A DNA stretch of 52,350 nt from Syntrophus aciditrophicus (GTDB lineage: Bacteria > Desulfobacterota > Syntrophia > Syntrophales > UBA5619): positions 1 to 52,350 of the forward strand of contig DYTH01000004.1 of the NCBI GenBank assembly GCA_020726025.1, read 5' to 3'. This document shows, one piece after another, positions 11,202 through 24,148 of this stretch. The notes under the pieces were generated by a model, which did not search any database, had not been told where the DNA came from, and worked only from the letters and a program-made list of their open reading frames with translations. The stretch's first letter is position 1. Every line of letters begins with the position of its first letter. Made by a program: the position numbers and the translations under genes.

Positions 11202-11606
11202 TTATCCCAGCGTCAAAACGGTCACCTGGCTCGGACAGATGGTCATCCCGGGCGCATTGGGCATCAAGCCAAGGGCGTTCTGGCCGGTAACGCTGGTCAG
11301 CCTTTGGGCGGGAACCCCATCCACGAGAATGGTGGCACACCCCACGACATAAAAATTCTGGCCGCAGTCCATCGGGTCAACAACGCCCAGTAAAAGCCCG
11401 GGATTGTCACCGAAGCTGACCAGTCCCCGGGAGAGCAAATTCAGGGAGGGCATGCAATCAACGAGAACATTGTAGGCTGCGGGCGCAGTTGTCGCCGACA
11501 TGTTGATATTGGGATAGGGGATCGGTACGGGACCGACGGGCGTCGGCGTGTTGCAGACGTCCGGGAAGCCCATGTTCATCCCTGCCCCCATCGATAACAT
11601 ATACAT
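11202..11606 (-). CDS. DUF4150/PAAR-like spike-tip protein
   Basis: A 134-residue DUF4150 (PAAR-like) protein: G-F-P-D-V-C-N-T-P-T-P-V-G-P-V-P-I-P-Y-P-N near residues 13-33, C-M-P-S-L-N-L-L-S-R-G, and D-N-P-G-L-L-L-G-V-V. PAAR-like proteins cap the VgrG spike and sharpen the T6SS tip. Many family members carry a toxin domain after the PAAR part, but this one stops right after it, so any cargo must be a separate protein. The start is supported by AAAGGAG eight bases upstream. It is spaced 13 bases from DUF3540 and 20 from the unknown last gene, all within one minus-strand operon. Confidence 0.88.
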   Translation of the reverse strand: MYMLSMGAGMNMGFPDVCNTPTPVGPVPIPYPNINMSATTAPAAYNVLVDCMPSLNLLSRGLVSFGDNPGLLLGVVDPMDCGQNFYVVGCATILVDGVPAQRLTSVTGQNALGLMPNAPGMTICPSQVTVLTLG

Positions 11607-11619
11607 CGTTTTTTCTCCT

Positions 11620-12276
11620 TTATCCCAAATGAATCTGTTCAGCGTTGACCGTCACGTTTTCCTCAGCCACGATCATCGTATTTTTTGCATGCATCGTCAT
11701 CAGATCCTCCACAAGAACACGTGCCGAACCGGCCTGGAGTTCATCCTGCTCCTTGACGAACCGGAAAGAGCTTTCCAGTCTTTGAGTCAGCCGACGGAAA
11801 ATCTGGTCGGCATGAACCGCCACCGTCTTGAGACGCTCGATCTGGACCTGCAGCAGGCGTCCCGTGTAGTCAACCCGGCTGATTTTAACAGTGCCGTCCT
11901 CGGCATGGATTTTCAGCTTTTCGGACGAGCAGCCCAGTACTCCCTGGGACGCCAGCGTCATATCCCCCTCCGCCGTCAAGGCCAGACAGCCTTTTTTCAC
12001 ATGGAGGTTAACCTGTCCGTCAAAATTGAGGTCGGTGACCGGATTTTCTTTCTGTCTCCTTTCGAGGATGGCCAGGATGTAATTTCTGCCCACCGAATCG
12101 ACGGAGGCGATGACGGTATCGCCCGGCCGCGGTTCCACCAGACAGCTCGCGGCCCTTGTCATCTTTATATCGCCTGAGGCGGTGTCAACCATAAACGCGC
12201 CTCCTGAACTGCACCGGATTTGCCCGTATTCCAGACAGGGCTGATTGAGCTGTTTTATTTCTGCCAATGCCTGCAT
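11620..12276 (-). CDS. DUF3540 T6SS-associated protein
   Basis: A 218-residue protein of the DUF3540 type. It begins with a small OB-like or beta domain (G-D-T-V-I-A-S-V-D-S-V-G-R-N-Y-I-L-A-I-L-E-R) and continues with a repetitive beta segment (L-H-V-K-K-G-C-L-A-L-T-A-E-G-D-M-T-L-A-S-Q-G), reminiscent of the VgrG spike. A helical stretch follows, then N-T-M-I-V-A-E-E-N-V-T-V-N-A near the end. DUF3540 genes regularly sit between DUF2169/pentapeptide and DUF4150 genes in T6SS loci and are thought to help assemble or load the tip. The mechanism is unknown. The start at 12276 is fixed by AGGGAGG just upstream. The 61-base gap before it contains no other gene. Confidence 0.82.
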   Translation of the reverse strand: MQALAEIKQLNQPCLEYGQIRCSSGGAFMVDTASGDIKMTRAASCLVEPRPGDTVIASVDSVGRNYILAILERRQKENPVTDLNFDGQVNLHVKKGCLALTAEGDMTLASQGVLGCSSEKLKIHAEDGTVKISRVDYTGRLLQVQIERLKTVAVHADQIFRRLTQRLESSFRFVKEQDELQAGSARVLVEDLMTMHAKNTMIVAEENVTVNAEQIHLG

Positions 12277-12337
12277 ATGAACCTCCCTGAACGTTGAAAC
12301 TATGAAACCGTGATAGTGAAAAAATTCTTCTGCCGCA

Positions 12338-13396
12338 TCAATCAGCCGGCGGCGACCAATTTTCCGCAGCGGCCATCTCCTTGTTAGTTCCCCGGATAAG
12401 AGCCTTTTTGGTCCCCTCCCAGATCGTTCCCTCTTCAATCGTAGCGTGCATACGGGCCATGAAGAGGCTTGCATTCCTGAAATCGGCGGCCGTAATATCC
12501 GCGTAAGAGAAATCGGCATAGCCGCAGTTGCAGTTCTGAAACCGGCAGGCCCGGCATTTTGCCTTGTCGAAGACGGCGTTGTAAAGATTCGCCCCGGAAA
12601 AATCGGCGTGGGAAAGATCCGCCTCGCCGAAGTAAGCCTGCATGAAATCGCTTCTCGTCAGGTTGGCCCTGAGGAGCTTTGCCCCCATGAACATCGTGTT
12701 TTGCCCCTTCACCCCTGCGAAGATGGCCCCGGCGAGGTCCGCATTCATGAAATTGGACATGGAGATATCGGAGCCTGTGAAATCGGCGCCTTTCAGATCG
12801 GAGCCCGAAAAATTGACCTGCTGAATGAACATTCCCCGGAAATCCTGGGTCCCCAGAATGCAGTTCTGCAGAAGGGTCTTGAAAAGCCGGGCCTCCTTGA
12901 AAACGGCGCCGGTAACATCCGCGTCGAGGAAAACGGCCTTGGTAAGCGTGGAACCGGTGAAATCGGTTTTTTTCAGCGAGGTGTGCAAAAAACTGTTTTT
13001 TTCGACCTTTGCCCCCCTGATCTTCGCTTCGTCAAGCAGCGCGTCCTGGAAAAGCGACCAGCCGATATTGGCCCCGGTCAGGTCGGCCCCGGTCAGATCA
13101 GCCCCGTTGAGAATGGTTTGAAAGAATTTTACGTTGCGTAAAGAGGCTTCTTTGAGGATCATCTTGCTCATGTTGACTTTGGACAGATCGGTTCCGTCCA
13201 GTTTCACCCCGGTGAAATCGCATTCCTTGAATCCGGTTTTGGCGATCGAAGCACCGGTCAGATCGGCGCCCCGGAACGAAACGAACTCGAAGCGGCCCCC
13301 GCTCAAATCAGCGCCGGACAGATCAACGCCGGAGAGATCCGCATGTTCAATCATCTGATGTCGCCGGATGCTTTCCTGCACTTCCTGCCGCGTCAT
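12338..13396 (-). CDS. Pentapeptide-repeat protein of the T6SS tip module
   Basis: A 352-residue protein made almost entirely of A-(D/N)-L-x-x pentapeptide repeats (about 20-330), predicted to fold as a right-handed quadrilateral beta-helix. It opens T-R-Q-E-V-Q-E-S-I and then D-L-S-G-V-D-L-S-G-A-D-L-S-G, a layout copied from the C-terminal part of the preceding DUF2169 protein, so one probably derives from the other by duplication. Its ATG overlaps that gene's stop by four bases (ATGA), and AAGGGAGG lies about ten bases ahead, so the two are translationally coupled. In T6SS loci such proteins accompany DUF2169 adaptors. A role as scaffold or cargo chaperone is inferred. Confidence 0.85.
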   Translation of the reverse strand: MTRQEVQESIRRHQMIEHADLSGVDLSGADLSGGRFEFVSFRGADLTGASIAKTGFKECDFTGVKLDGTDLSKVNMSKMILKEASLRNVKFFQTILNGADLTGADLTGANIGWSLFQDALLDEAKIRGAKVEKNSFLHTSLKKTDFTGSTLTKAVFLDADVTGAVFKEARLFKTLLQNCILGTQDFRGMFIQQVNFSGSDLKGADFTGSDISMSNFMNADLAGAIFAGVKGQNTMFMGAKLLRANLTRSDFMQAYFGEADLSHADFSGANLYNAVFDKAKCRACRFQNCNCGYADFSYADITAADFRNASLFMARMHATIEEGTIWEGTKKALIRGTNKEMAAAENWSPPAD

Positions 13397-16300
13397 TTCA
13401 GATAATCCTCCCTTTTGTCGAGCTGGGTCATCTTCAGATTGGCCCCGGTGGCGTCGGTATTGCCCACGGTAGCCTTGAACAAATCCACGCCGAACAGGTT
13501 GGCGCCCTGCAGATCCGCATTCACCAGCCGGGCTTTTCTCAGGGAACCCTGGAACATGTTGATTTCTTTCATCCTGGCGCCTTCGAGGTTTGTCTTCGTG
13601 AACCGCGTCTGTTTCGCGGAAATGCGCTGGAGATCGGCCTGTTGGAGATCACAGTCCTCGATAATCGATTCCTGAATGACCGCCCCACGGAACGACGCGC
13701 CCGCCAGATCGGATTCTCGGAAGCACCCGTGTTTCATTCGGATATTGCGAAAATCCGCTTCAGGAAAGGAGGCCTGCCCGCCCATCCGGGCCTTGTCCAT
13801 GTTGGCGCCGGCAAAGGTCACACGTTTTCCCTTTGCCCCGAAGAAAATCGTCGAATCGAGGGTGGCATTGGAGAAATCCCCATTGTCCAGGACGGCATTC
13901 ATAAAAACGCATTTCTTGAAGTTCCCGTCAGGAAACCGGGCGTTCGAGGCTTCCACCTCCGACAGGATGCACATGTTGGCATCCACTCCGGAAAGTTCTG
14001 TTTTTACAAGTTTAGCCTTCTGAAGAACCGACATGTTCAGTTTGACATCCCGCATATTGGCCTCGGTCAGATCCGCCTCCTGCAATATCGCGGAGTCGAA
14101 TTCAGCGGTTTGCAAGTCGGCCTTTTTAAAGAGCGCCTTGGTAAAGATTCCGCGCTCCGCCCGCGCTCCCCTGAGGCAAGCGCCGGAGAAATCAGCCTCC
14201 ATCGCGAGAATCTGGAAGAGTTTCGCCCCCTCGAGGTTCGTGTTGCAGAATTTTGTTTTCTGGCACTGGGCGGTGGAAAGATCAATGCCGCGAAGATCCA
14301 GATCGGACAGATCCACCTCCGCCAGAATCGCCCCGGACAGGGATTCGCCCTTTGAGTGCAGCTCTACGACTTCCTCCCTTGTGAGTTTTCTCACCTTTTC
14401 CGGATCGATCCCGGTTCCTTTGAACTGGGCCTTTATCGAGTCGGGAATCCCGCCTGACTTGGCGGAATCGATTTCTTTCTGCGCCGCAGCCAGTTTTGCC
14501 ATCCCCTCCGTGTAACGAATTTCCGCTTCCTCTCCCATCCGGGTTATCTTGGCGGCGGCGGCGTTCATTTTTACCTCCACCTCCGAGGTCAGCACTCCCT
14601 GAGCCCGGATCTTTTCCCGCTGGACAGCAACCTGATCGGCCATTTCCCTGGCCACCTGAGTGATGGACTTCTGCGGCTGAAGCGACAGCGCCTTGTCCGC
14701 ATCCATGCCGAGTTTTCCGAGAATATCCCTGGCATGATCCGTCATCTCCTTCTGGAGGGCATTGGCCGTATCAACATGGGGCTGTGCCGCCGCCTTGATT
14801 TCGTTCGTCAACGAAGCCACCAGCGCGGGTATGTCGGGTATGGCAAGGCCGAAGTCTGAAAAAGGCTTCTTGGCTGCCGGTTCACCGGGTTCCGGAAACT
14901 CCGGCCCGATTGCGTGTTTCCGGGCTAAATCCGGCGGCAGGGCCTCCATGATCCACTGGCGGAGATCGACCTTTTTCCCGACCGCATCGAGCACATCCTT
15001 TCCCCTGGGAAGCTCGATCCCGCGGGAGTTCGGATAAACGGACCGCCACTTCATTATTTTTGCCTCGGCCATCCCTTTTTCTGGAAAAACCACCAGCAGC
15101 GCCGGGGAGTCCTTCATCGCCTCCGCCGCATCTTTCGGAGGCTTCTCTCCGCTGTCTTTCAGGACAATGATCGAACAGGCATCGCCCGCCTCCTGCTCGA
15201 GGAGCAGCGCCTCCAGTTCGGTGGCCGCAACAATCCAGGGCGTGTCGTCATCCACGACCGCAGCCGGTAAGACGCGCGGCGACTCCTCCGAGCCTTCAAT
15301 CAGAGAGGATTCCATGGGGTCAATTTTCTCGCGGAAATCCGTGTTGCAGATCTCTATCCTGTTGAGATGCGCTTCCTGAAACCGTGGCACAACCAAGCCG
15401 GGCGGCAATCTCAGCGAAACGCTGCCGCCGTCTGCATCCTTTTTCTCTTCCAGACCCCACAGCGTCCGTTCTTCTGTCTTCTCTTCCAGATTGACGCCGA
15501 GCCACGCCCGTTCGATGGTTTTTCGCGTGAAACCCATCTGTTTGAGAAGTTCCGCCATTTCGCGATGCTCCTCAAGGCGCCTCCGGCGCTGAACCACGAA
15601 TGGAAACCCCCGATCGTGCCAGGGATTCGACGGCCTGCTGACCGCCGCAGGATTGTCGGGATCAATGCCTGACTTGGCCAGCACATTGGGTGGAATTCTC
15701 TCTTTGAGGCTGTTGGAGAGCCCCTTCTGGGCATCCGCGGCCTTTTGCCTGGCCTGCGCAACCTCCGCCATCGTCTTGTCCAGATGCCCGTCCGTTTTCG
15801 CCAGCTTGTCCCGGATGCCATCAAAATCAACACCCCTGATATTGACTATGTGGCTGTAGCGGGCCTGCATTTTCCCGGTCATCCCCTCCATATTGTTCAG
15901 AAGGACAGCAGACTCCGCAAGAACCTTCTTCGCTTGGGCGACTGTCTCTTCCGGCGTCTGCGGCATGAAAGGGGCTTTCCCGAGCACCCTGGCCTTGACC
16001 TGCTCGATCTCCTTGGGAAGGTTCTTGACGAGCAGCATGGCGTCGTGAATCTTCTTTTTAGCCGCTTCCAGCGGCGCCTGGTCAATGGGGACCATCCGGT
16101 TGAGAACCTTTTTCTGTTCTTCCAGGTAGTATTGGAGGGGCTTGGGCGTCTCATCCTCTTGCTCGCTGTCAAGGAAGATGCGCTGCACGTCGGCATACTC
16201 CTCATCGAGGATTTCGGCGGTTCCCCTGTGGATGATTACCCCCCTCATGACCGTGGGGAAAAGCCAGAGGGTGTCGATCCGCGTGGTGACTTCCTGGAAG

Positions 16301-17148
16301 ATTTCGTCGCTTTTCTGCCCTGGCTTCAGGGTGGTCTTTTTCGTGACGAAACAGCGCGGACGGAGGCGTGGGATGTGGGACTTGATCAGCGGCAGATCGG
16401 GGTGCATGTTCCCGATTTCGATGGGATCGCCGGCCTTGAAGAATCCCTCGCTGAGCTGGTCCTCCGGCGCCGCGTTGAAATACTCATAATTCATGTCCTG
16501 CGGAAAATTGGGCCAGTGCTCCTTGAGCCATTTATCGTCGTATGTCCCCGTCTTTCTCATCCGCTGCGGCCACATCATATCGAGGGGGCCAAATCCCGCC
16601 GGGTCGGGCCGGTCGGATGGTGAACCGATGAGGCGGTCGGGGAGTTCTACGTTGGGAAGATAGACACGGAACTCGCCGTCGGGCATCCGTGCCGGGTCTA
16701 TCCCTCTTCCAAGGGGGTTCTTCTCGAAATCCTTTCCGCCAAAGGCATTATTCCAGGTCAAAGGCGCCTCGCTGAATCCCTCCGGTTGACTGATGGCAGT
16801 AATTACCCCCCCTGTCTTTTTCCAGTAGCGATCACCGAAAATGTTCAAGGTCTTGCGTATGTTTCCGGCACGAAAAAAAACCTGAGACGCCGGGCGCGTC
16901 TGGCCGCGGGGGGAAAAGCACGAGCCCGTGACCAGCGCCTCCGCCCTTGGCTTGGCCATCCCCTGGTCAAACACGACGCCCTGTCCGAGCTGGGCCGGGA
17001 CAACCGACCAGAGTTCCTGTTCTTTCAAGGGCGCATCGGGATCGTTCAGATCGAAAAAGATCAGGACGGAGACGGCCAGATAAAGCTTGTCCGCGATCCC
17101 GAAAGACTTGATCAGAAGCGATTGTTCGTTCTTTTTAAATATCTTCAT
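13393..17148 (-). CDS. DUF2169 T6SS adaptor fused to long pentapeptide-repeat domain
   Basis: A 1251-residue, three-part protein. Residues 1 to about 290 form a DUF2169 domain with W-N-N-A-F-G-G-K-D, N-P-L-G-R-G, G-F-G-P-L-D-M-M-W-P-Q-R and N-A-A-P-E-D-Q; DUF2169 proteins act as loading adaptors for T6SS cargo. A helical, charged central part (about 300-900) contains likely coiled coil and a T-R-E-E-V helix. From about 920 to the end there are pentapeptide repeats (G-x-D-L-S-D-L-D-L-R-G and many A-x-L/F). Most DUF2169 proteins I know are much shorter, so the fusion is notable. It starts three bases after the vgrG1 stop and overlaps the next gene by four bases, so it should be made in step with VgrG. 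Confidence 0.88.
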   Translation of the reverse strand: MKIFKKNEQSLLIKSFGIADKLYLAVSVLIFFDLNDPDAPLKEQELWSVVPAQLGQGVVFDQGMAKPRAEALVTGSCFSPRGQTRPASQVFFRAGNIRKTLNIFGDRYWKKTGGVITAISQPEGFSEAPLTWNNAFGGKDFEKNPLGRGIDPARMPDGEFRVYLPNVELPDRLIGSPSDRPDPAGFGPLDMMWPQRMRKTGTYDDKWLKEHWPNFPQDMNYEYFNAAPEDQLSEGFFKAGDPIEIGNMHPDLPLIKSHIPRLRPRCFVTKKTTLKPGQKSDEIFQEVTTRIDTLWLFPTVMRGVIIHRGTAEILDEEYADVQRIFLDSEQEDETPKPLQYYLEEQKKVLNRMVPIDQAPLEAAKKKIHDAMLLVKNLPKEIEQVKARVLGKAPFMPQTPEETVAQAKKVLAESAVLLNNMEGMTGKMQARYSHIVNIRGVDFDGIRDKLAKTDGHLDKTMAEVAQARQKAADAQKGLSNSLKERIPPNVLAKSGIDPDNPAAVSRPSNPWHDRGFPFVVQRRRRLEEHREMAELLKQMGFTRKTIERAWLGVNLEEKTEERTLWGLEEKKDADGGSVSLRLPPGLVVPRFQEAHLNRIEICNTDFREKIDPMESSLIEGSEESPRVLPAAVVDDDTPWIVAATELEALLLEQEAGDACSIIVLKDSGEKPPKDAAEAMKDSPALLVVFPEKGMAEAKIMKWRSVYPNSRGIELPRGKDVLDAVGKKVDLRQWIMEALPPDLARKHAIGPEFPEPGEPAAKKPFSDFGLAIPDIPALVASLTNEIKAAAQPHVDTANALQKEMTDHARDILGKLGMDADKALSLQPQKSITQVAREMADQVAVQREKIRAQGVLTSEVEVKMNAAAAKITRMGEEAEIRYTEGMAKLAAAQKEIDSAKSGGIPDSIKAQFKGTGIDPEKVRKLTREEVVELHSKGESLSGAILAEVDLSDLDLRGIDLSTAQCQKTKFCNTNLEGAKLFQILAMEADFSGACLRGARAERGIFTKALFKKADLQTAEFDSAILQEADLTEANMRDVKLNMSVLQKAKLVKTELSGVDANMCILSEVEASNARFPDGNFKKCVFMNAVLDNGDFSNATLDSTIFFGAKGKRVTFAGANMDKARMGGQASFPEADFRNIRMKHGCFRESDLAGASFRGAVIQESIIEDCDLQQADLQRISAKQTRFTKTNLEGARMKEINMFQGSLRKARLVNADLQGANLFGVDLFKATVGNTDATGANLKMTQLDKREDYLK

Positions 17149-17151
17149 AGT

Positions 17152-19497
17152 CTATACTGTACAGGTAGTTCCCGATATGTGGAGATTAGTCGAGTTCACA
17201 CGCTGGACAGCGCCGCTCACCCTGGTGCTGGATCCGGAAACGGTCACGCTGCCGCCCTCAACTACTGTATCGTCGCCGGAGACAGTGGTGTCATCCCCTG
17301 CAACATCCGTGGCGTCGCCCTGGACTTCTGTCTCCTCGCCGGTGACGTCTGCCGCGAATCCCTGAATAACTGTATGGTTCCCCGTTATACGTTCGGCATT
17401 TCCCCGGACAACTGTTCTTACGCCGGTGACGTTTGTCGCATCTCCTTTTACCGTTGTGTGCTCTCCATGGACGGTAGTGGCATTTCCTTTGACCTTTGTC
17501 TTGCTTCCCGTTATGGTATTTACGGTACCCCGAATCTCGACGCTGTTGCTGCCCAGTTCCAGTTCCTGTTCCCCCAGATGAACAGTCTGCCCCCTGAATT
17601 CATGTTGATGGCTTTTGTATTCCTGGCTTCCTGCGATCTTCAGCTCCGTATCGAATCCAATGACTGTTTCCCAGCTTGCTCCCAGCACATTGAGGGAGTA
17701 AAGAACGACGACCGTCTCCGTTTCTTCCCCTAAAACAATCTTGTTTTCCGCTGCCGCCATGATATCGAGGTAGCCGCTGGTGGCCAGGTGGATACCAGCC
17801 TTGCCTTTCTCCTTCTTGCCGGTTTCCCAGTCGGAGATATAATCCCAGACGCCCTCTGCCGCGGATTTGATATAATCCCCGACGCCCTCTGCCGCGGATT
17901 TGATATATTTCCAGACTGTCTCGTCATAGTCGTCAAAAGGAAAAGGGTCGTTGGGCGCGCCGATGCGGATGAAGCTCTTCTGTTTTGGGGAGTGCATCAG
18001 AATACGCTCGCTTTCCTCCCTGTCCTCCATGTGAATCCGGTTGCCGCCGGACGAGGTAATCGCCGCCATCGTCTGGTTATCCGCCGTTACCGGCGAGGGG
18101 GTTTCCGGATTCGGAACGGCGCCCGCGATAATCGGGCGATCCGGGTCCCCGTCGATGAAAGTCAGAAGAACCTCCGTTCCCTTGTGAAGCGGAAAATGCA
18201 TTCCGTGACCGCTTCCCGCATACGGCTGGGCCATCCTTACCCACGCCGAGGCCTTCCCGTCCTTCCGGCCCGACAGATCGAACGGCAAAACCACCTTGTA
18301 CCGGCCATGCCCGTCCAGCTCCGCGTACTTGCCGCTTCCCGCCGCGTCTATCCGGGCTATGATCGTTCCGGCTATCCGTGGCCTTTGAGTCCTGCTCTCC
18401 GGACGAAACTGCACCGAAGCCGGTATAACCGTGAAATCGTTGCGGTAATAAACACGCCGCTCCGCCTCGGACAACTGCGACTGCAACCCCGCCATCAGAT
18501 AGCCCGCCTGACTCCCCTCATGCCGGATATCCGTCGCCAGATACCGCTGATTGAATTCCCCGCGGTAATGATCCTTCAGGTCAAACGTAAAGCCCGGCTC
18601 CATATAGGGAACCGAACTCTCCCCCCGAAACTCCTCCCGGCGGCACAAAATCGACTCCGCTCTTATTTGCGCCAGACGCGTCCCTTCCTCCGGTGTCTCG
18701 ATGTGACCCCCGTAATAGTAAAACTGCCCCCGCCCGCCCGCCGATACCGAGGCGCTCCCGCTTACCTCCAGGGAAGGCTTCATGTAGTTATAGTCCTTCA
18801 GAAAAATACTCCCCGGGGTAAGAGACCGGCGACAATTGAAGAAGGACACCACCTCCCCCATGTGCAGCGCGTCTAACCCCGACGGCGGCGAATAATGAAG
18901 CTCGCTTCCCTGCGGCATCTGTGTGTGGGCAATGGCCGTGTCCGTAAAGACGACCTTCTCCGCATCGCCGGACTGATCGAAGTAATAGTAGATTCCCTCC
19001 CGTTCGCACCAGCGCGAAATGAAGTCAAGATGGCTCTCCCCGTACTGGCAGACATAGTCCAGAAAACCATAGGAACCCCGCAGACGAAAATCGTAGTCCA
19101 CCGACGTCAGCCCGCCATCCTTCAATACCAGCTCCACAATCTCCGGGACCGATTTGTCCAGAAAGATCTGGTTGTGATGGGTCAAAGACAGCCACCACAG
19201 GCGCGGAACCAGGCAGGCACGGTAAAAACAGAGACCATCCGCCTCCTGCAACTGCTCAAAATGACGCAGAATACCGTGATACGCCACGTCGTTTTCATCA
19301 CCCCGGTGGATAATGAAACGGGCCGGATTCTGCAACACCTCCGCCAGATCAATCTCCAGATTATCCGAAACCAGCATCGCCTCAAACTGGTAAGTCCGGG
19401 ACAGTCCCTCCTCGCCCTGAAAACTGACAACCCCGAATGTATCAGGAGATAGCCCGTCCGATATGAATGAAAACCTGCTGTCCGTTAGTCCCTTCAT
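17152..19497 (-). CDS. vgrG: T6SS spike protein VgrG (copy 1)
   Basis: A 781-residue VgrG/TssI. Residues 1 to about 370 are the gp27-like base, with the conserved C-Q-Y-G-E-S-H-L-D-F-I-S-R-W and E-R-E-G-I-Y-Y-Y-F. About 375-480 is the gp5-like OB domain, including R-P-I-I-A-G-A-V-P-N-P and G-G-N-R-I-H-M-E-D. The rest is a needle. The first 518 residues are identical to copy 2; residues beyond are unique. They include an 11-residue repeat (Y-I-K-S-A-A-E-G-V-x-D) and, over roughly the last 110 residues, heptads T-x-V-x-G-x-x that should form the spike's beta-helix or beta-prism. The next gene (DUF2169) starts three bases after the stop. VgrG trimers cap the Hcp tube and carry the PAAR tip. Confidence 0.95.
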   Translation of the reverse strand: MKGLTDSRFSFISDGLSPDTFGVVSFQGEEGLSRTYQFEAMLVSDNLEIDLAEVLQNPARFIIHRGDENDVAYHGILRHFEQLQEADGLCFYRACLVPRLWWLSLTHHNQIFLDKSVPEIVELVLKDGGLTSVDYDFRLRGSYGFLDYVCQYGESHLDFISRWCEREGIYYYFDQSGDAEKVVFTDTAIAHTQMPQGSELHYSPPSGLDALHMGEVVSFFNCRRSLTPGSIFLKDYNYMKPSLEVSGSASVSAGGRGQFYYYGGHIETPEEGTRLAQIRAESILCRREEFRGESSVPYMEPGFTFDLKDHYRGEFNQRYLATDIRHEGSQAGYLMAGLQSQLSEAERRVYYRNDFTVIPASVQFRPESRTQRPRIAGTIIARIDAAGSGKYAELDGHGRYKVVLPFDLSGRKDGKASAWVRMAQPYAGSGHGMHFPLHKGTEVLLTFIDGDPDRPIIAGAVPNPETPSPVTADNQTMAAITSSGGNRIHMEDREESERILMHSPKQKSFIRIGAPNDPFPFDDYDETVWKYIKSAAEGVGDYIKSAAEGVWDYISDWETGKKEKGKAGIHLATSGYLDIMAAAENKIVLGEETETVVVLYSLNVLGASWETVIGFDTELKIAGSQEYKSHQHEFRGQTVHLGEQELELGSNSVEIRGTVNTITGSKTKVKGNATTVHGEHTTVKGDATNVTGVRTVVRGNAERITGNHTVIQGFAADVTGEETEVQGDATDVAGDDTTVSGDDTVVEGGSVTVSGSSTRVSGAVQRVNSTNLHISGTTCTV
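17836..17916 (-). repeat. 33-bp tandem repeat inside vgrG1
   Basis: Two 33-base units (17836-17868 and 17869-17901) differ at one base, and a partial third unit follows (17902-17916). They encode Y-I-K-S-A-A-E-G-V-G/W-D twice. The repeat lies directly after the end of the segment shared with vgrG2, in the linker before the spike, and is a probable slippage product that changes linker length without shifting frame. Confidence 0.8.
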
Positions 19498-19514
19498 GGT
19501 ACCCAGCTCATCAT
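17943..19514 (-). repeat. 1572-bp direct repeat, copy in vgrG1
   Basis: This block matches 20245-21816 with an offset of 2302 bases. Besides the vgrG frame, unrelated frames on both strands translate identically in the two copies, which means near-complete nucleotide identity rather than mere protein conservation. It runs from the leader just upstream of the start codon (through 19514) into codon 518. Confidence 0.92.
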
Positions 19515-21799
19515 ATTATCATGTCAACCACACCGGAAACATTCACATGAGCGGAGGTAATTTCCTGAACATCCGCGCTCACCGCCGTACCCTCTCCCTG
19601 GACTGTAACCGTGCCTCCCATAATATGGCTTCCTTGCCCGGAAACAGTGGTATGGCCTCCCGAAACCCTCAAGGCGTTTCCCTGAACCGATGTAAGGGTT
19701 CCCGATACCGTGGTCGCATGGCCGTTGACAATGGCGCCCTCCCCCGTAACGTTTTCTGCTTTTCCCAGCACCTCCGAATCCGACCCGACGACATTGGTGG
19801 CGCTTCCCTTGACGGTTGTACGGGCGCCCTCAACCGTTCCGACATTGCCTGTTACCCCCGTTTTGTTGCCGACAACCTCGGTGGCGGTCCCGACAAAGCG
19901 GATTTTACTGCCTTTGATCTTTATCACTTGACCGCCTACGGTGATTGTCTCGGGGTGAAAATCGTGTTTCAGGCTGTCAAAGGCTTTATGTACGGCCATA
20001 TGCAGTTCTCCGTCCAGGCCGATGACGGTATCCCAGCGCGCCCCGATAACGTTATGCGCGTAGCCGACAATAAAAGTTTCCGTCTCCTCGCCGAGTATCA
20101 GCTTGTTGGATGCCTCCGCCGTGATATCGAGAAGACCGTTGGTAGCAAGATGGATGCCGCTTCTTCCTTCGGTATGCTCATAGTGGCCATCTTTATCCTT
20201 CGTGCGGAAATGCCAACTATGGGGCCCCTCGTCATCGGCGACAGAAGGGTCGTTGGGCGCGCCGATGCGGATGAAGCTCTTCTGTTTTGGGGAGTGCATC
20301 AGAATACGCTCGCTTTCCTCCCTGTCCTCCATGTGAATCCGGTTGCCGCCGGACGAGGTAATCGCCGCCATCGTCTGGTTATCCGCCGTTACCGGCGAGG
20401 GGGTTTCCGGATTCGGAACGGCGCCCGCGATAATCGGGCGATCCGGGTCCCCGTCGATGAAAGTCAGAAGAACCTCCGTTCCCTTGTGAAGCGGAAAATG
20501 CATTCCGTGACCGCTTCCCGCATACGGCTGGGCCATCCTTACCCACGCCGAGGCCTTCCCGTCCTTCCGGCCCGACAGATCGAACGGCAAAACCACCTTG
20601 TACCGGCCATGCCCGTCCAGCTCCGCGTACTTGCCGCTTCCCGCCGCGTCTATCCGGGCTATGATCGTTCCGGCTATCCGTGGCCTTTGAGTCCTGCTCT
20701 CCGGACGAAACTGCACCGAAGCCGGTATAACCGTGAAATCGTTGCGGTAATAAACACGCCGCTCCGCCTCGGACAACTGCGACTGCAACCCCGCCATCAG
20801 ATAGCCCGCCTGACTCCCCTCATGCCGGATATCCGTCGCCAGATACCGCTGATTGAATTCCCCGCGGTAATGATCCTTCAGGTCAAACGTAAAGCCCGGC
20901 TCCATATAGGGAACCGAACTCTCCCCCCGAAACTCCTCCCGGCGGCACAAAATCGACTCCGCTCTTATTTGCGCCAGACGCGTCCCTTCCTCCGGTGTCT
21001 CGATGTGACCCCCGTAATAGTAAAACTGCCCCCGCCCGCCCGCCGATACCGAGGCGCTCCCGCTTACCTCCAGGGAAGGCTTCATGTAGTTATAGTCCTT
21101 CAGAAAAATACTCCCCGGGGTAAGAGACCGGCGACAATTGAAGAAGGACACCACCTCCCCCATGTGCAGCGCGTCTAACCCCGACGGCGGCGAATAATGA
21201 AGCTCGCTTCCCTGCGGCATCTGTGTGTGGGCAATGGCCGTGTCCGTAAAGACGACCTTCTCCGCATCGCCGGACTGATCGAAGTAATAGTAGATTCCCT
21301 CCCGTTCGCACCAGCGCGAAATGAAGTCAAGATGGCTCTCCCCGTACTGGCAGACATAGTCCAGAAAACCATAGGAACCCCGCAGACGAAAATCGTAGTC
21401 CACCGACGTCAGCCCGCCATCCTTCAATACCAGCTCCACAATCTCCGGGACCGATTTGTCCAGAAAGATCTGGTTGTGATGGGTCAAAGACAGCCACCAC
21501 AGGCGCGGAACCAGGCAGGCACGGTAAAAACAGAGACCATCCGCCTCCTGCAACTGCTCAAAATGACGCAGAATACCGTGATACGCCACGTCGTTTTCAT
21601 CACCCCGGTGGATAATGAAACGGGCCGGATTCTGCAACACCTCCGCCAGATCAATCTCCAGATTATCCGAAACCAGCATCGCCTCAAACTGGTAAGTCCG
21701 GGACAGTCCCTCCTCGCCCTGAAAACTGACAACCCCGAATGTATCAGGAGATAGCCCGTCCGATATGAATGAAAACCTGCTGTCCGTTAGTCCCTTCAT
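19511..21799 (-). CDS. vgrG: T6SS spike protein VgrG (copy 2)
   Basis: A 762-residue VgrG. The start at 21799 is the same ATG context as in copy 1; 22 extra codons upstream in frame are unlikely to be used. The gp27-like base and gp5-like OB domain (residues 1-518) are identical to copy 1. The remaining about 244 residues are different and end in a longer heptad-repeat needle (T-x-V-x-G-x-x) with M-G-G-T-V-T-V-Q-G-E-G-T-A-V near the end. The stop lies 13 bases before the start of vgrG1. Identical bases with different needles suggest that tip specificity is swapped while the shared part is kept uniform by recombination. Confidence 0.94.
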   Translation of the reverse strand: MKGLTDSRFSFISDGLSPDTFGVVSFQGEEGLSRTYQFEAMLVSDNLEIDLAEVLQNPARFIIHRGDENDVAYHGILRHFEQLQEADGLCFYRACLVPRLWWLSLTHHNQIFLDKSVPEIVELVLKDGGLTSVDYDFRLRGSYGFLDYVCQYGESHLDFISRWCEREGIYYYFDQSGDAEKVVFTDTAIAHTQMPQGSELHYSPPSGLDALHMGEVVSFFNCRRSLTPGSIFLKDYNYMKPSLEVSGSASVSAGGRGQFYYYGGHIETPEEGTRLAQIRAESILCRREEFRGESSVPYMEPGFTFDLKDHYRGEFNQRYLATDIRHEGSQAGYLMAGLQSQLSEAERRVYYRNDFTVIPASVQFRPESRTQRPRIAGTIIARIDAAGSGKYAELDGHGRYKVVLPFDLSGRKDGKASAWVRMAQPYAGSGHGMHFPLHKGTEVLLTFIDGDPDRPIIAGAVPNPETPSPVTADNQTMAAITSSGGNRIHMEDREESERILMHSPKQKSFIRIGAPNDPSVADDEGPHSWHFRTKDKDGHYEHTEGRSGIHLATNGLLDITAEASNKLILGEETETFIVGYAHNVIGARWDTVIGLDGELHMAVHKAFDSLKHDFHPETITVGGQVIKIKGSKIRFVGTATEVVGNKTGVTGNVGTVEGARTTVKGSATNVVGSDSEVLGKAENVTGEGAIVNGHATTVSGTLTSVQGNALRVSGGHTTVSGQGSHIMGGTVTVQGEGTAVSADVQEITSAHVNVSGVVDMII

Positions 21800-21816
21800 G
21801 GTACCCAGCTCATCAT
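20245..21816 (-). repeat. 1572-bp direct repeat, copy in vgrG2
   Basis: Partner of 17943-19514. The right boundary includes the 17 bases upstream of the start codon, where the sequence of the intergenic leader then diverges (G at 21817 against A at 19515). The left boundary lies at the same codon in both genes. This is a recent duplication or gene conversion of the vgrG 5' two-thirds. Confidence 0.92.
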
Positions 21817-21904
21817 GGTCTACGCCTTCAGAAACCTGCAAGCCTTGCTTCGGCTGTTTGTGCAAATAAAAGGGTTGTAGCCCGGATAATTAATCTCTCC
21901 CGTG

Positions 21905-24148
21905 TCATAGTCTTATCTCCTGTTCGGCCAGCACCACCGTTGAACCGGTTATATCCTGTACATTTCCACTTACAGTCGTGTTGTCCCCTGTAACTGTCAC
22001 TTCTCCGCCTGTCACTTGCGTGCTTTGTCCCGTTACTTTCGTACGTTGGCCGCTGATATTGGTCGCTTTTCCCCGCACCGTTGTACCGTTGCCGGTTACA
22101 TTCACGGCGTCCCCCTGCACTGTGGTCGATTCGCCTTCCACCACAGCGGCGTTGCCAAAGATCCTCGTATCCCTGCCGCTGACGGTCGTGGCGTCGCCCC
22201 TGACGGTCGTATGGTTTCCGGCAACATCCTGCGCCGTGCCGGAGATGGTCGTTTCCTCTCCTCCCACTGTGACGATGTCTCCGGTAACATGAACCCCGTC
22301 CCCCACTACTCTGATCGTTTCCTCTCCCAGATGTATCTCCTGAACATTGCACTCATGATGGATGGGGGCGAAAGCGAGTCTCCCACCTATTTTGAGAGCC
22401 CCTTCAAGGCCGATGACGGTTTCCCAATTTACCCCCAAAGTGTTATGGACGAGAAGCCCGACAACCGTCTCCGTCTCCTCGCCGAGGATAAGCTTGTTGG
22501 ATGTCTCCGCCGTAACATCCAGAAGTGAGCTGGTGGCCAGACGCACGCCGAAGTTTTCTTCGGTCTTTTCGTTCTTGCCTTCATCCGCTACAGAAGGGTC
22601 ATTGGGCGCGCCGACGCGGATGAAGCTTTTCTGTTTGGGAACATGCATCAGGATCCGCTCGCTTCCCTCCCGGTCCTCCATGTGGATCCGGTTGCCGCCG
22701 GACGAGGTAATCGCCGCCATCGTCTGGTTGTCCGCCGTCACCGGCGAGGGGTTTTCCGGATTCGGAACGGCGCCCGCGATAATCGGGCGATCCGGATCCC
22801 CGTCGATGAAGGTAAGAAGAACATCTGTACCTTTGTGCAGCGGAAGGTGCATCCCGTGGCCGCTTCCCGCATACGGCTGGGCCATCCTCACCCATGCCGA
22901 GGCCTTCCCATCCTTCCGGCCGGATTGATCGAACGGCAAAATCACCTTGTACCGGCCGTACCCGTCGAGTTCAGCGTACTTGCCGCTTCCGGAAGCGTCG
23001 ATTCTGGCGATGATAGTTCCATAAATCCTCGGTTTTTCAGCCCTGACCTCCGGTCGGAACTGAACATCGGCACGAATCGCCGTAAAGCTGTTCCGGTAGT
23101 AAACCTGCGCCTCTCTTTCCGACAGCCCTTCACGGATGCCGGCGATGAGATAACCCGTCTGGCTCCCCTCGTGGCTGATCCGTGCAGTCAGGTATTTCCG
23201 ATTCAGGCTCTTGCGGTAGTGGTCCTCGAGATCGCAGGTAAACCCGGGAGCCAGGCAGGGGACCGAACTCTCCCCATTAAACGTTTCCTGCCGGCAGAGG
23301 ATGCCCTCGGCACGGATCTTCGCCAGCCGTGCGCCCTCCTCGCTTGTCTGAAAACGTTCATCGTAATAGTAGGCCTGACCGCGGCCGTGTTGATCAACCA
23401 AGGCATTCCCGGTAATTTCGAGTGACGGTTTGAGATAGTTGTAATCCTTGAGAAACACGCTTCCGGGAACCGTTTCCCGGCGGCAATTGAAGGATTTTAC
23501 CACCTCTGTTTCGTGTAGCGCGTCCAGCCCCGAGGTGGGCGAGTAGTGAATGGTCTTCCCCCGGGGAAGATCAGCGTGGGCGATCGCCGTGTCGGTGAAG
23601 ACCACCCTCTCGCCGTTCGGCGTCTGCTCGAAGAAATAATAGACCCCCTCGCGTTCCAGCCACCGGGAGACAAAGTTCAGATGACTCTCGCCGTACTGAC
23701 AGACGTAGTCGAGCGGATCGTATGTTTCCTTGAGACGAAACTCAAAATCGAGGGTGGTAAGGCCGCCATCCTTGAGTACATCCGTTACAATGTCCGGCAG
23801 GGATTTGTTAAGGATGACCTGGTTGTGTCTGGCAAGCGAGAGCCACCAGAGCCTGGGCGCCAGAAACGCCCTGTAGAACACGTAGTTATCCACGGCGTGA
23901 AGCTGCTCGAAATGGGCGATGACGCCCTGATAAACGACGTCGTCTTCCCCCTCGCGATGGATGATCAGCCGGGCGGGATTTTGAACAATCCCCTTGAGAT
24001 CAATCCCTTTGTCGGTTGAAACAAGCATGATTTCAAATTCATAGGGAACCGATAGCGCCTCACTTCCCTGGAAGTGAACCACCCCGAATGTATCCGGTGC
24101 AAGCAGGCTGGAAATGAACGAGAATTTTTTTGACGTCAAATAATCCAT
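21905..24148 (-). CDS. vgrG: T6SS spike protein VgrG (copy 3)
   Basis: A 747-residue VgrG, clearly paralogous to copies 1 and 2 but diverged throughout. It has D-Y-V-C-Q-Y-G-E-S-H-L-N-F-V-S-R-W and E-R-E-G-V-Y-Y-F-F in the base, and R-P-I-I-A-G-A-V-P-N-P-E-N-P-S-P-V-T in the OB domain. The OB and linker region is closest to the other copies, notably around G-N-R-I-H-M-E-D-R. The C-terminal needle (about the last 140 residues) is again built of T-x-V-x-G-x-x heptads. It is the most clpV-proximal copy and probably the parent of the array. The 105-base gap to vgrG2 and the 106-base gap to clpV hold no genes that I can see. Confidence 0.94.
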   Translation of the reverse strand: MDYLTSKKFSFISSLLAPDTFGVVHFQGSEALSVPYEFEIMLVSTDKGIDLKGIVQNPARLIIHREGEDDVVYQGVIAHFEQLHAVDNYVFYRAFLAPRLWWLSLARHNQVILNKSLPDIVTDVLKDGGLTTLDFEFRLKETYDPLDYVCQYGESHLNFVSRWLEREGVYYFFEQTPNGERVVFTDTAIAHADLPRGKTIHYSPTSGLDALHETEVVKSFNCRRETVPGSVFLKDYNYLKPSLEITGNALVDQHGRGQAYYYDERFQTSEEGARLAKIRAEGILCRQETFNGESSVPCLAPGFTCDLEDHYRKSLNRKYLTARISHEGSQTGYLIAGIREGLSEREAQVYYRNSFTAIRADVQFRPEVRAEKPRIYGTIIARIDASGSGKYAELDGYGRYKVILPFDQSGRKDGKASAWVRMAQPYAGSGHGMHLPLHKGTDVLLTFIDGDPDRPIIAGAVPNPENPSPVTADNQTMAAITSSGGNRIHMEDREGSERILMHVPKQKSFIRVGAPNDPSVADEGKNEKTEENFGVRLATSSLLDVTAETSNKLILGEETETVVGLLVHNTLGVNWETVIGLEGALKIGGRLAFAPIHHECNVQEIHLGEETIRVVGDGVHVTGDIVTVGGEETTISGTAQDVAGNHTTVRGDATTVSGRDTRIFGNAAVVEGESTTVQGDAVNVTGNGTTVRGKATNISGQRTKVTGQSTQVTGGEVTVTGDNTTVSGNVQDITGSTVVLAEQEIRL

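Follow-up and report, generated by a model that had tools for sequence, protein, structure and literature searches.

Heptad-repeat needles on three VgrG spikes of a Syntrophus type VI secretion cluster and their predicted beta-roll fold

The needles of VgrG proteins are usually taken to be gp5-like prisms. Heptads are found in the beta-roll of the Lolium perenne ice-binding protein (3ULT), in which one coil comprises two heptads, and in the heads of trimeric autotransporters (Hep_Hag), which are trimeric and heptad-based. For the Tvp class III system of Serratia marcescens (VgrG1-TvpAB-TvpB-TvpC-Paar1), the accessible parts of the original report describe TvpC as a VgrG mimic that is loaded with PAAR by TvpAB and TvpB and then gives way to VgrG1 (PMC13373197, 2026). 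According to the same parts, the prisms of class III VgrGs are longer than those of VgrGs without Tvp proteins; the main text, as far as accessible, describes a beta-prism and contains neither 'heptad' nor 'octad' (PMC13373197).

We analysed a 52,350-nucleotide stretch of Syntrophus aciditrophicus DNA (assembly GCA_020726025.1, contig DYTH01000004.1), hereafter the window. Three vgrG genes sit there within a type VI secretion system (T6SS) gene cluster, as judged from family matches to a ClpV-type AAA protein, TssG, TssF, VipB, VipA, ImpA/VasJ, IcmF, DotU, VasE and SciN; VgrG C is preceded by ClpV, TssG, TssF and other T6SS genes. Behind VgrG A follow, in this order, genes for a DUF2169 protein with pentapeptide repeats, a pentapeptide-repeat protein, a DUF3540 protein and a PAAR-like protein:

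21905..24148, minus strand: VgrG C, open reading frame of 747 aa; PF05954 1.6e-76, PF04717 3.8e-9
19511..21799, minus strand: VgrG B, 762 aa counted from the ATG (21799) common to VgrG A
17152..19497, minus strand: VgrG A, open reading frame of 781 aa with gp27-like hub, OB fold, octad stretch and heptad needle
13393..17148, minus strand: TvpAB-like protein, DUF2169 and pentapeptide repeats; PF09937 1.4e-80, PF00805 9.2e-37
12338..13396, minus strand: TvpB-like pentapeptide-repeat protein; PF00805 8.1e-54
11620..12519, minus strand: TvpC-like DUF3540 protein; PF12059 1.5e-54 at residues 104-299
11202..11606, minus strand: PAAR-like protein, open reading frame of 134 aa; PF13665 4.7e-30 at 11274-11582

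The gp27-like hub and OB fold (PF05954 and PF04717) are present in all three VgrGs, with E-values of 2.3e-78 and 1.5e-10 in VgrG A. TIGR03361 scores above its cut-off in both of the window VgrGs compared, VgrG A included, and PF05954 is well above its own. The longest reading frame of VgrG B (19511-21865) starts upstream of the ATG shared with VgrG A, and an internal ATG at 12276 in the TvpC-like gene would remove its overlap with TvpB. The class III gene set, as defined in the accessible part of its description (PMC13373197), consists of VgrG, DUF2169 with pentapeptide repeats, a free pentapeptide-repeat protein, DUF3540 and a DUF4150-type PAAR, all of which are found here. The set occupies 11202-24148 with its three vgrG genes, and the nearest named relatives of the genome's VgrGs are from Thermodesulfobacteriota. 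The ends of VgrG C (21905-21940) and of the DUF3540 protein (11620-11655) look alike by eye (V-x-AEQ-x(0,1)-I); this shared end is perhaps a PAAR-docking strand.

The C-terminal 126-133 residues of each window VgrG consist of heptads in which position 3 is V/I and position 5 is G, preceded in VgrG C by a regular octad stretch:

17164..17541, minus strand: heptad needle of VgrG A, 18 heptads; PF21300 36.9 bits (cut-off 30); 3ULT E=4.1e-8
19526..19903, minus strand: heptad needle of VgrG B, 18 heptads; PF21300 16.7 bits, under the cut-off
21917..22315, minus strand: heptad needle of VgrG C, 19 heptads; PF21300 35.1 bits, over the cut-off; 3ULT E=1.3e-7
22386..22485, minus strand: octad stretch of VgrG C with [LIVM]G at 8-residue intervals, gp5-like prism; immediately before the needle

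A preliminary description of this DNA had reported heptads in all three C-termini, and the repeat is real: V/I at 3 and G at 5 stand in register in 17 of 18 heptads of VgrG A (longest run 16), 15 of 18 in VgrG B (14) and 18 of 19 in VgrG C (18), and the best register in 5000 residue shuffles per needle never exceeded five heptads. The Fourier power of glycine at period 7 over the last 170 residues is 22.8, 14.2 and 20.8 in A, B and C, respectively, and at period 8 it is at most 0.1 in the needles. That description had also called T/A at position 1 fixed; we found this residue to be frequent rather than fixed, with the full combination of T/A, V/I and G occurring in 12 of 18, 8 of 18 and 11 of 19 heptads. 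It had further described needles differing in length and sequence. The sequences do differ (40-49% identity to the first row of the alignments), but the lengths are nearly equal.

As it had implied, the heptad is distinct from the octad. In VgrG C, [LIVM]G recurs in exact octads at residues 555, 563, 571, 579 and 587, and the heptads begin at 612; the octads of VgrG A and B are less regular. Relatives show period 8 in the matching stretch as well (L022, L018, L011, L009_b and L021). The gp5-type octad VxGxxxxx is absent from the needle, which has period 7, and is confined to the short stretch before it. Frameshifted or misread octads are ruled out by the high period-7 and near-zero period-8 power in the needle and by the true octads ahead of it. 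Because this shorter gp5-like stretch precedes them, most clearly in VgrG C, the heptads are a separate module: a gp5-like octad prism exists, though a short one, and the heptads come after it.

Alanine occupies heptad position 7 in alternate heptads only (15 of 15 in A, B and C), and the same one-parity rule holds for 19 of 19 when a fourth needle is added, that of a partial VgrG from another family of the same order (L056). Shuffles gave a p of 0.0001 pooled over the four needles, which is overstated because paralogues share ancestry; singly, the values were 0.03, 0.03, 0.03 and 0.08. Counting valine together with alanine weakened the pooled alternation (p 0.0015). K/R/Q at position 4 follow the same parity as the alanines (net difference 14/16, p 0.0016), mostly owing to VgrG A, and L056 alone does not show this parity (p 0.58). 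For VgrG A, none of 2000 shuffles reached the observed similarity of heptads two apart; the p-values were 0.04 for C and 0.22 for B. The alanine alternation suggests that the true repeat unit may be 14 residues, that is, two heptads per coil. Since gp5 itself alternates E/K over two units, according to the accessible part of its description (PMC4576200), the 14-residue alternation speaks for a two-strand coil without proving it.

Comparison of VgrG A and B by blastn and base by base revealed identical trunks, and VgrG A carries a short repeat where trunk and needle meet:

17943..19514, minus strand: trunk of VgrG A with 17 nt upstream, identical over 1572 nt to 20245-21816
20245..21816, minus strand: trunk of VgrG B with 17 nt upstream, identical to 17943-19514
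17836..17916, minus strand: 33-bp tandem repeat, 2.5 copies, at the trunk/needle junction of VgrG A only

The identity begins 17 nt ahead of the ATG and reaches codon 518. In its final 428-441 nt, the trunk of VgrG C is 89% identical to those of A and B. The point at which this similarity stops (17943, 20245 and 22594) agrees among the three genes to 13 nt or better, the C-B match extending 13 nt past the common end. Beyond it, protein identity among the three drops to 40-49%. Through the 33-bp repeat, VgrG A gains a duplicated, helix-like insert of 11 residues between its trunk and its needle. The simplest reading is that trunks bearing distinct tips were recently duplicated or underwent gene conversion; an assembly artefact is possible, as the genome looks fragmented (149 contigs).

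Several matches link the needles to beta-rolls. PF21300 (LbR_Ice_bind, the grass-antifreeze beta-roll) is above the Pfam cut-off in VgrG A and C and below it in B, and a profile of the three needles matches 3ULT with E=2.5e-12. Trimeric adhesin heads match weakly: the Hep_Hag head 3S6L with the three-needle profile (E 0.024), and 3S6L (0.0027) and BpaC 7O23 (0.0044) with needle C alone. No Hep_Hag family is listed for the window proteins at E up to 1 in Pfam, a search in which the HMMER filters drop many weak hits. Shuffles that preserve the heptad columns keep 25.7 of 35.1 bits against 3ULT for A, 16.1 of 25.1 for B and 26.5 of 29.7 for C, and full shuffles score nothing. The 3ULT match is therefore a match to the repeat pattern and may be convergent. 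PF21300 was accordingly rejected as proof of fold, also because it matches, at 3.4e-4 and below its cut-off, the heptads of an unrelated frame that reads as an efflux adaptor and should be helical (L036). This match indicates that the PF21300 model can pick up probable coiled coils. Ice binding as a function of the needle was likewise rejected, the repeat pattern being its sole support.

We ran AlphaFold2 on residues 486-747 of VgrG C as a single chain with three aligned sequences (A and B with C). The needle was modelled as a solenoid with 14 residues per turn and long strands at 140, 154, 168, 182 and 196, at a pLDDT of 85-96 over most of its length (the best ten-residue blocks reach 96). 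In that model, the octad stretch had a pLDDT of about 25-30, and the remaining four models averaged 43-47. AlphaFold2 is reported to give confident false beta-solenoids for perfect repeats, and methods to agree on the fold of natural families with diverged repeats, in the accessible part of a study on the subject (PMC11795689). The window needles count among the diverged natural repeats, like the families for which methods agree. The same method folded the heptads of a related VgrG (L008) not as a solenoid but as a single 159-residue helix, with pLDDT to 95. Foldseek found no significant match of the VgrG C model in the PDB (best E 0.056) or in BFVD (best 0.035). VIA-align of this model, whose first half is of low confidence, returned LpxD, autotransporter and tailspike solenoids with Z up to 11.1; neither 3ULT nor a YadA head was among the matches listed, which is no evidence against those folds. 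Together with the in-register heptads of the three paralogues and of L056, the model leads us to favour, with somewhat better than even confidence, a needle that is a trimeric beta-roll, shorter and thicker than the gp5 needle, on an otherwise ordinary VgrG.

When genome contigs were scanned with an alignment of the three proteins, eight loci were returned, mostly in metagenome genomes of Desulfobulbaceae, Desulfocapsa and Desulfovibrionaceae, and matches at 1e-80 occur in 10 of 155 genomes of the order, the own genome included. PF21300 is found in 1 of 21 genomes of the family and in 8 of 395 sampled genomes of the phylum, again including the own; none of the 15 non-window loci that we examined is a VgrG by the motif used. 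The three-needle profile matched 5 of the 395 phylum genomes at E 1e-6, in VgrGs of the own genome and of G193 (L008) and in non-VgrG proteins of G276, G254 and G430. In the order, it matched 4 of 155 genomes at 1e-4 (the own, G101, G136 and G139), all in VgrG frames. No needle relative turned up in viral contigs or in phages; on plasmids, the relatives were two Priestia proteins with a peptidase-G2 domain.

The heptad of the preliminary description recurs in near-identical kind in one other species of the order, in the partial VgrG L056. Most relatives with a homologous trunk carry other repeats at the needle position, among them T-x-L-x-G heptads that are related but look helical. In L021, T/S occupies 16 of 17 heptads, L 15 of 17 and G 17 of 17, with V mostly at position 7 and the 3-4 spacing of coiled coils. 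Its extremely regular T-K-L-x-G-E-V heptads (L021:938-3193) make it a candidate natural trimeric coil with a glycine in every heptad. L008 and L011 follow a similar pattern less strictly; L018-L020 and L022 have a plain-coil look with some G heptads, and L012, L023, L024, L027 and L028 bear other tails. Of the 68 Pfam families that L021 matches at E up to 1, the 25 listed are mostly coiled coils, and L008 and L011 weakly match both PF21300 (0.011 and 0.0041) and coiled-coil families. A DUF2169 relative follows VgrG in L008, L011, L009, L018-L022, L056 and, for its second VgrG, L007. In L007 (3023-5380), collagen-like G-x-x triplets lie between trunk and tip, another trimer-forming module at this place. 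Of 12 same-order loci read, L025, L026 and L029 had no frame with the sought motif and were unused. In a tree of trunks, from which the partial L056 was left out and to which L010 and L013 contributed as trunks only, A, B and C group with four coil-type VgrGs (support 96/94).

Two other folds have to be weighed against the roll. The needle may instead be an interwound triple-stranded beta-prism as in T4 gp5, with heptads V-x-G-x4 in place of octads V-x-G-x5, a possibility that we take seriously without expecting it to hold. Such a needle would be slender, about 85-90 Å long and continuous with the preceding octad prism, an outcome that is conceivable but doubtful. The needle does continue the octad prism directly, and the gp5 repeat VxGxxxxx, in the accessible part of its description (PMC4576200), differs by one residue. 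Weak matches to the solved VgrG tip 8GRA (E 0.016) and to the phage hub family phrog_694 (0.0016) favour a prism over a roll, and the long prisms reported for class III VgrGs in the accessible part of PMC13373197 fit a prism and count against the favoured roll, which is short. The 14-residue alternation is compatible with a prism as well, given the two-unit E/K alternation of gp5, but in the window it sets alanine against polar residues and forms no salt-bridge pair. Pfam Gp5_C, moreover, has no match in the three window VgrGs at E up to 1, and AlphaFold2 folds the heptads, and not the octads, as a self-contained roll.

A trimeric alpha-helical coiled coil, as inferred at the same place in relatives, seems very improbable for the window needles. 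The homologous trunks of L021, L008 and L011 do bear T-x-L-x-G heptads with hydrophobic residues spaced 3-4, L008 is predicted to be helical, L021 matches many coiled-coil families, and both L021 (1.8e-16) and L008 (as L050; 1.1e-11) are hit by the profile of the window needles, although such repeat matches do not prove common descent. The window needles, however, lack the 3-4 hydrophobic spacing: position 7 is hydrophobic in 6-8 of 17 heptads, and position 3 is V/I in 16-17 of 17. Helix formers make up 0.22-0.25 of their residues versus 0.40-0.52 in L006, L008, L011 and L021, and beta formers 0.37-0.41 versus 0.23-0.27, and AlphaFold2 builds strands from the window needle. Least credible is that the needle is an active part, such as an ice-, surface- or receptor-binding roll or a membrane-damaging tip, rather than a passive shaft. 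Its nearest solved sequence is an ice-binding roll (3ULT), and depolarisation of targets has been reported for a class III VgrG that has no toxin domain (PMC13373197, accessible part); yet the 3ULT likeness is one of repeat pattern, no binding or toxin feature was identified, and directly behind VgrG A lies no immunity-like gene but the DUF2169 gene.

If the beta-roll is right, the heptad may even have changed its fold. On a tentative and rather unlikely reading, one T-x-[V/L]-x-G heptad has crossed between a coiled coil in most relatives (L008, L021) and a beta-roll in the window species and L056, the switch lying at positions 3 and 7. The two needles would, if one ventures so far, sit at the same place on homologous trunks and both be trimeric. 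Position 3 would have changed from L to V/I and position 7 from hydrophobic in most heptads to alanine in alternate ones, which we suggest with equal hesitation; L008 and L011, weakly matching both kinds of family, might conceivably be intermediates. Such a crossing is kept as a possibility only, because repeat matches prove no descent and the three window trunks form one group with a support of just 72/78.

The favoured trimeric beta-roll would give the following picture of the T6SS spike. A short gp5-like octad prism is continued by a module of 18-19 heptads; two heptads would form one 14-residue coil, giving each chain about nine. Every chain would probably form a parallel beta-roll of its own, which by comparison with 3ULT would be left-handed. 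In the VgrG trimer, the three rolls may lie against one another in the manner of trimeric autotransporter adhesin heads. The result would be a stiff tip of about 40-45 Å, thicker than the gp5 prism. A needle that is perhaps thinner or metal-stabilised had been envisaged previously; neither property finds support, as a roll would be thicker and shorter than the gp5 prism and, on reading the sequence, no His/Cys/Asp ladder or other sign of a metal site is evident. The needle would serve as the shaft that seats the PAAR cap: the neighbouring TvpAB and TvpB would hold PAAR on the VgrG mimic TvpC and then pass it to VgrG. Because A and B have an identical trunk but a different tip, the tip appears to be the exchangeable part, and it probably sets which cargo or partner rides each spike.

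The heptad needle is real, looks ordered and lies outside the standard octad description of VgrG. The literature on VgrG repeats and needles that we consulted (listings, abstracts and passages, mostly from papers free of subscription) describes no heptad or beta-roll VgrG needle. With a probable beta-roll here and what seems to be a helical coil at the same place in close relatives, the working tip of the spike may be exchangeable between very different folds. By the textbook rise per residue, rather than from the model, 126 residues extend over about 40 Å as a roll, 90 Å as a prism and 190 Å as a coil. If one trunk can bear a beta-roll, a coiled coil or a prism as its tip, spikes can vary freely in length and width; this matters for how a spike fits in the closed membrane complex and for why class III systems need a set of loading chaperones. 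An alpha/beta pair on one heptad, if true, would be a natural fold change in a repeat, and A and B, with identical trunks and different tips, offer a clean natural experiment on what the needle decides.

Compared with known systems, the window needles share x-x-V-x-G heptads with LbR_Ice_bind and 3ULT, a plant secreted protein that often has Asn rather than Thr at position 1; there is no reason to expect its ice binding here. The Hep_Hag heads (3S6L and BpaC 7O23) differ in being surface adhesins without a VgrG trunk. With the triple-stranded beta-helix of T4 gp5, the needles have in common V and G at fixed places and their position at the end of a trimeric spike, but their period is 7 with a 14-residue sub-period instead of the 8 of VxGxxxxx (PMC4576200, accessible part). 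The T-x-L-x-G VgrGs L008, L011 and L021 resemble the window VgrGs in homologous trunk, needle position, T at 1, G at 5 and the adjacent DUF2169 gene, and differ in their coiled-coil spacing and in the helix predicted for L008, the only one folded. Tvp class III of Serratia marcescens has the same gene set and long VgrG tips (PMC13373197, accessible part), with the window distinguished by three vgrG genes. Hub, OB domains, short octad stretch and T6SS cluster mark the window proteins as VgrG (TssI), the gp27-gp5-like spike of the T6SS; unlike in the usual VgrG, their C-terminal extension is neither octads nor an effector domain but 18-19 heptads.
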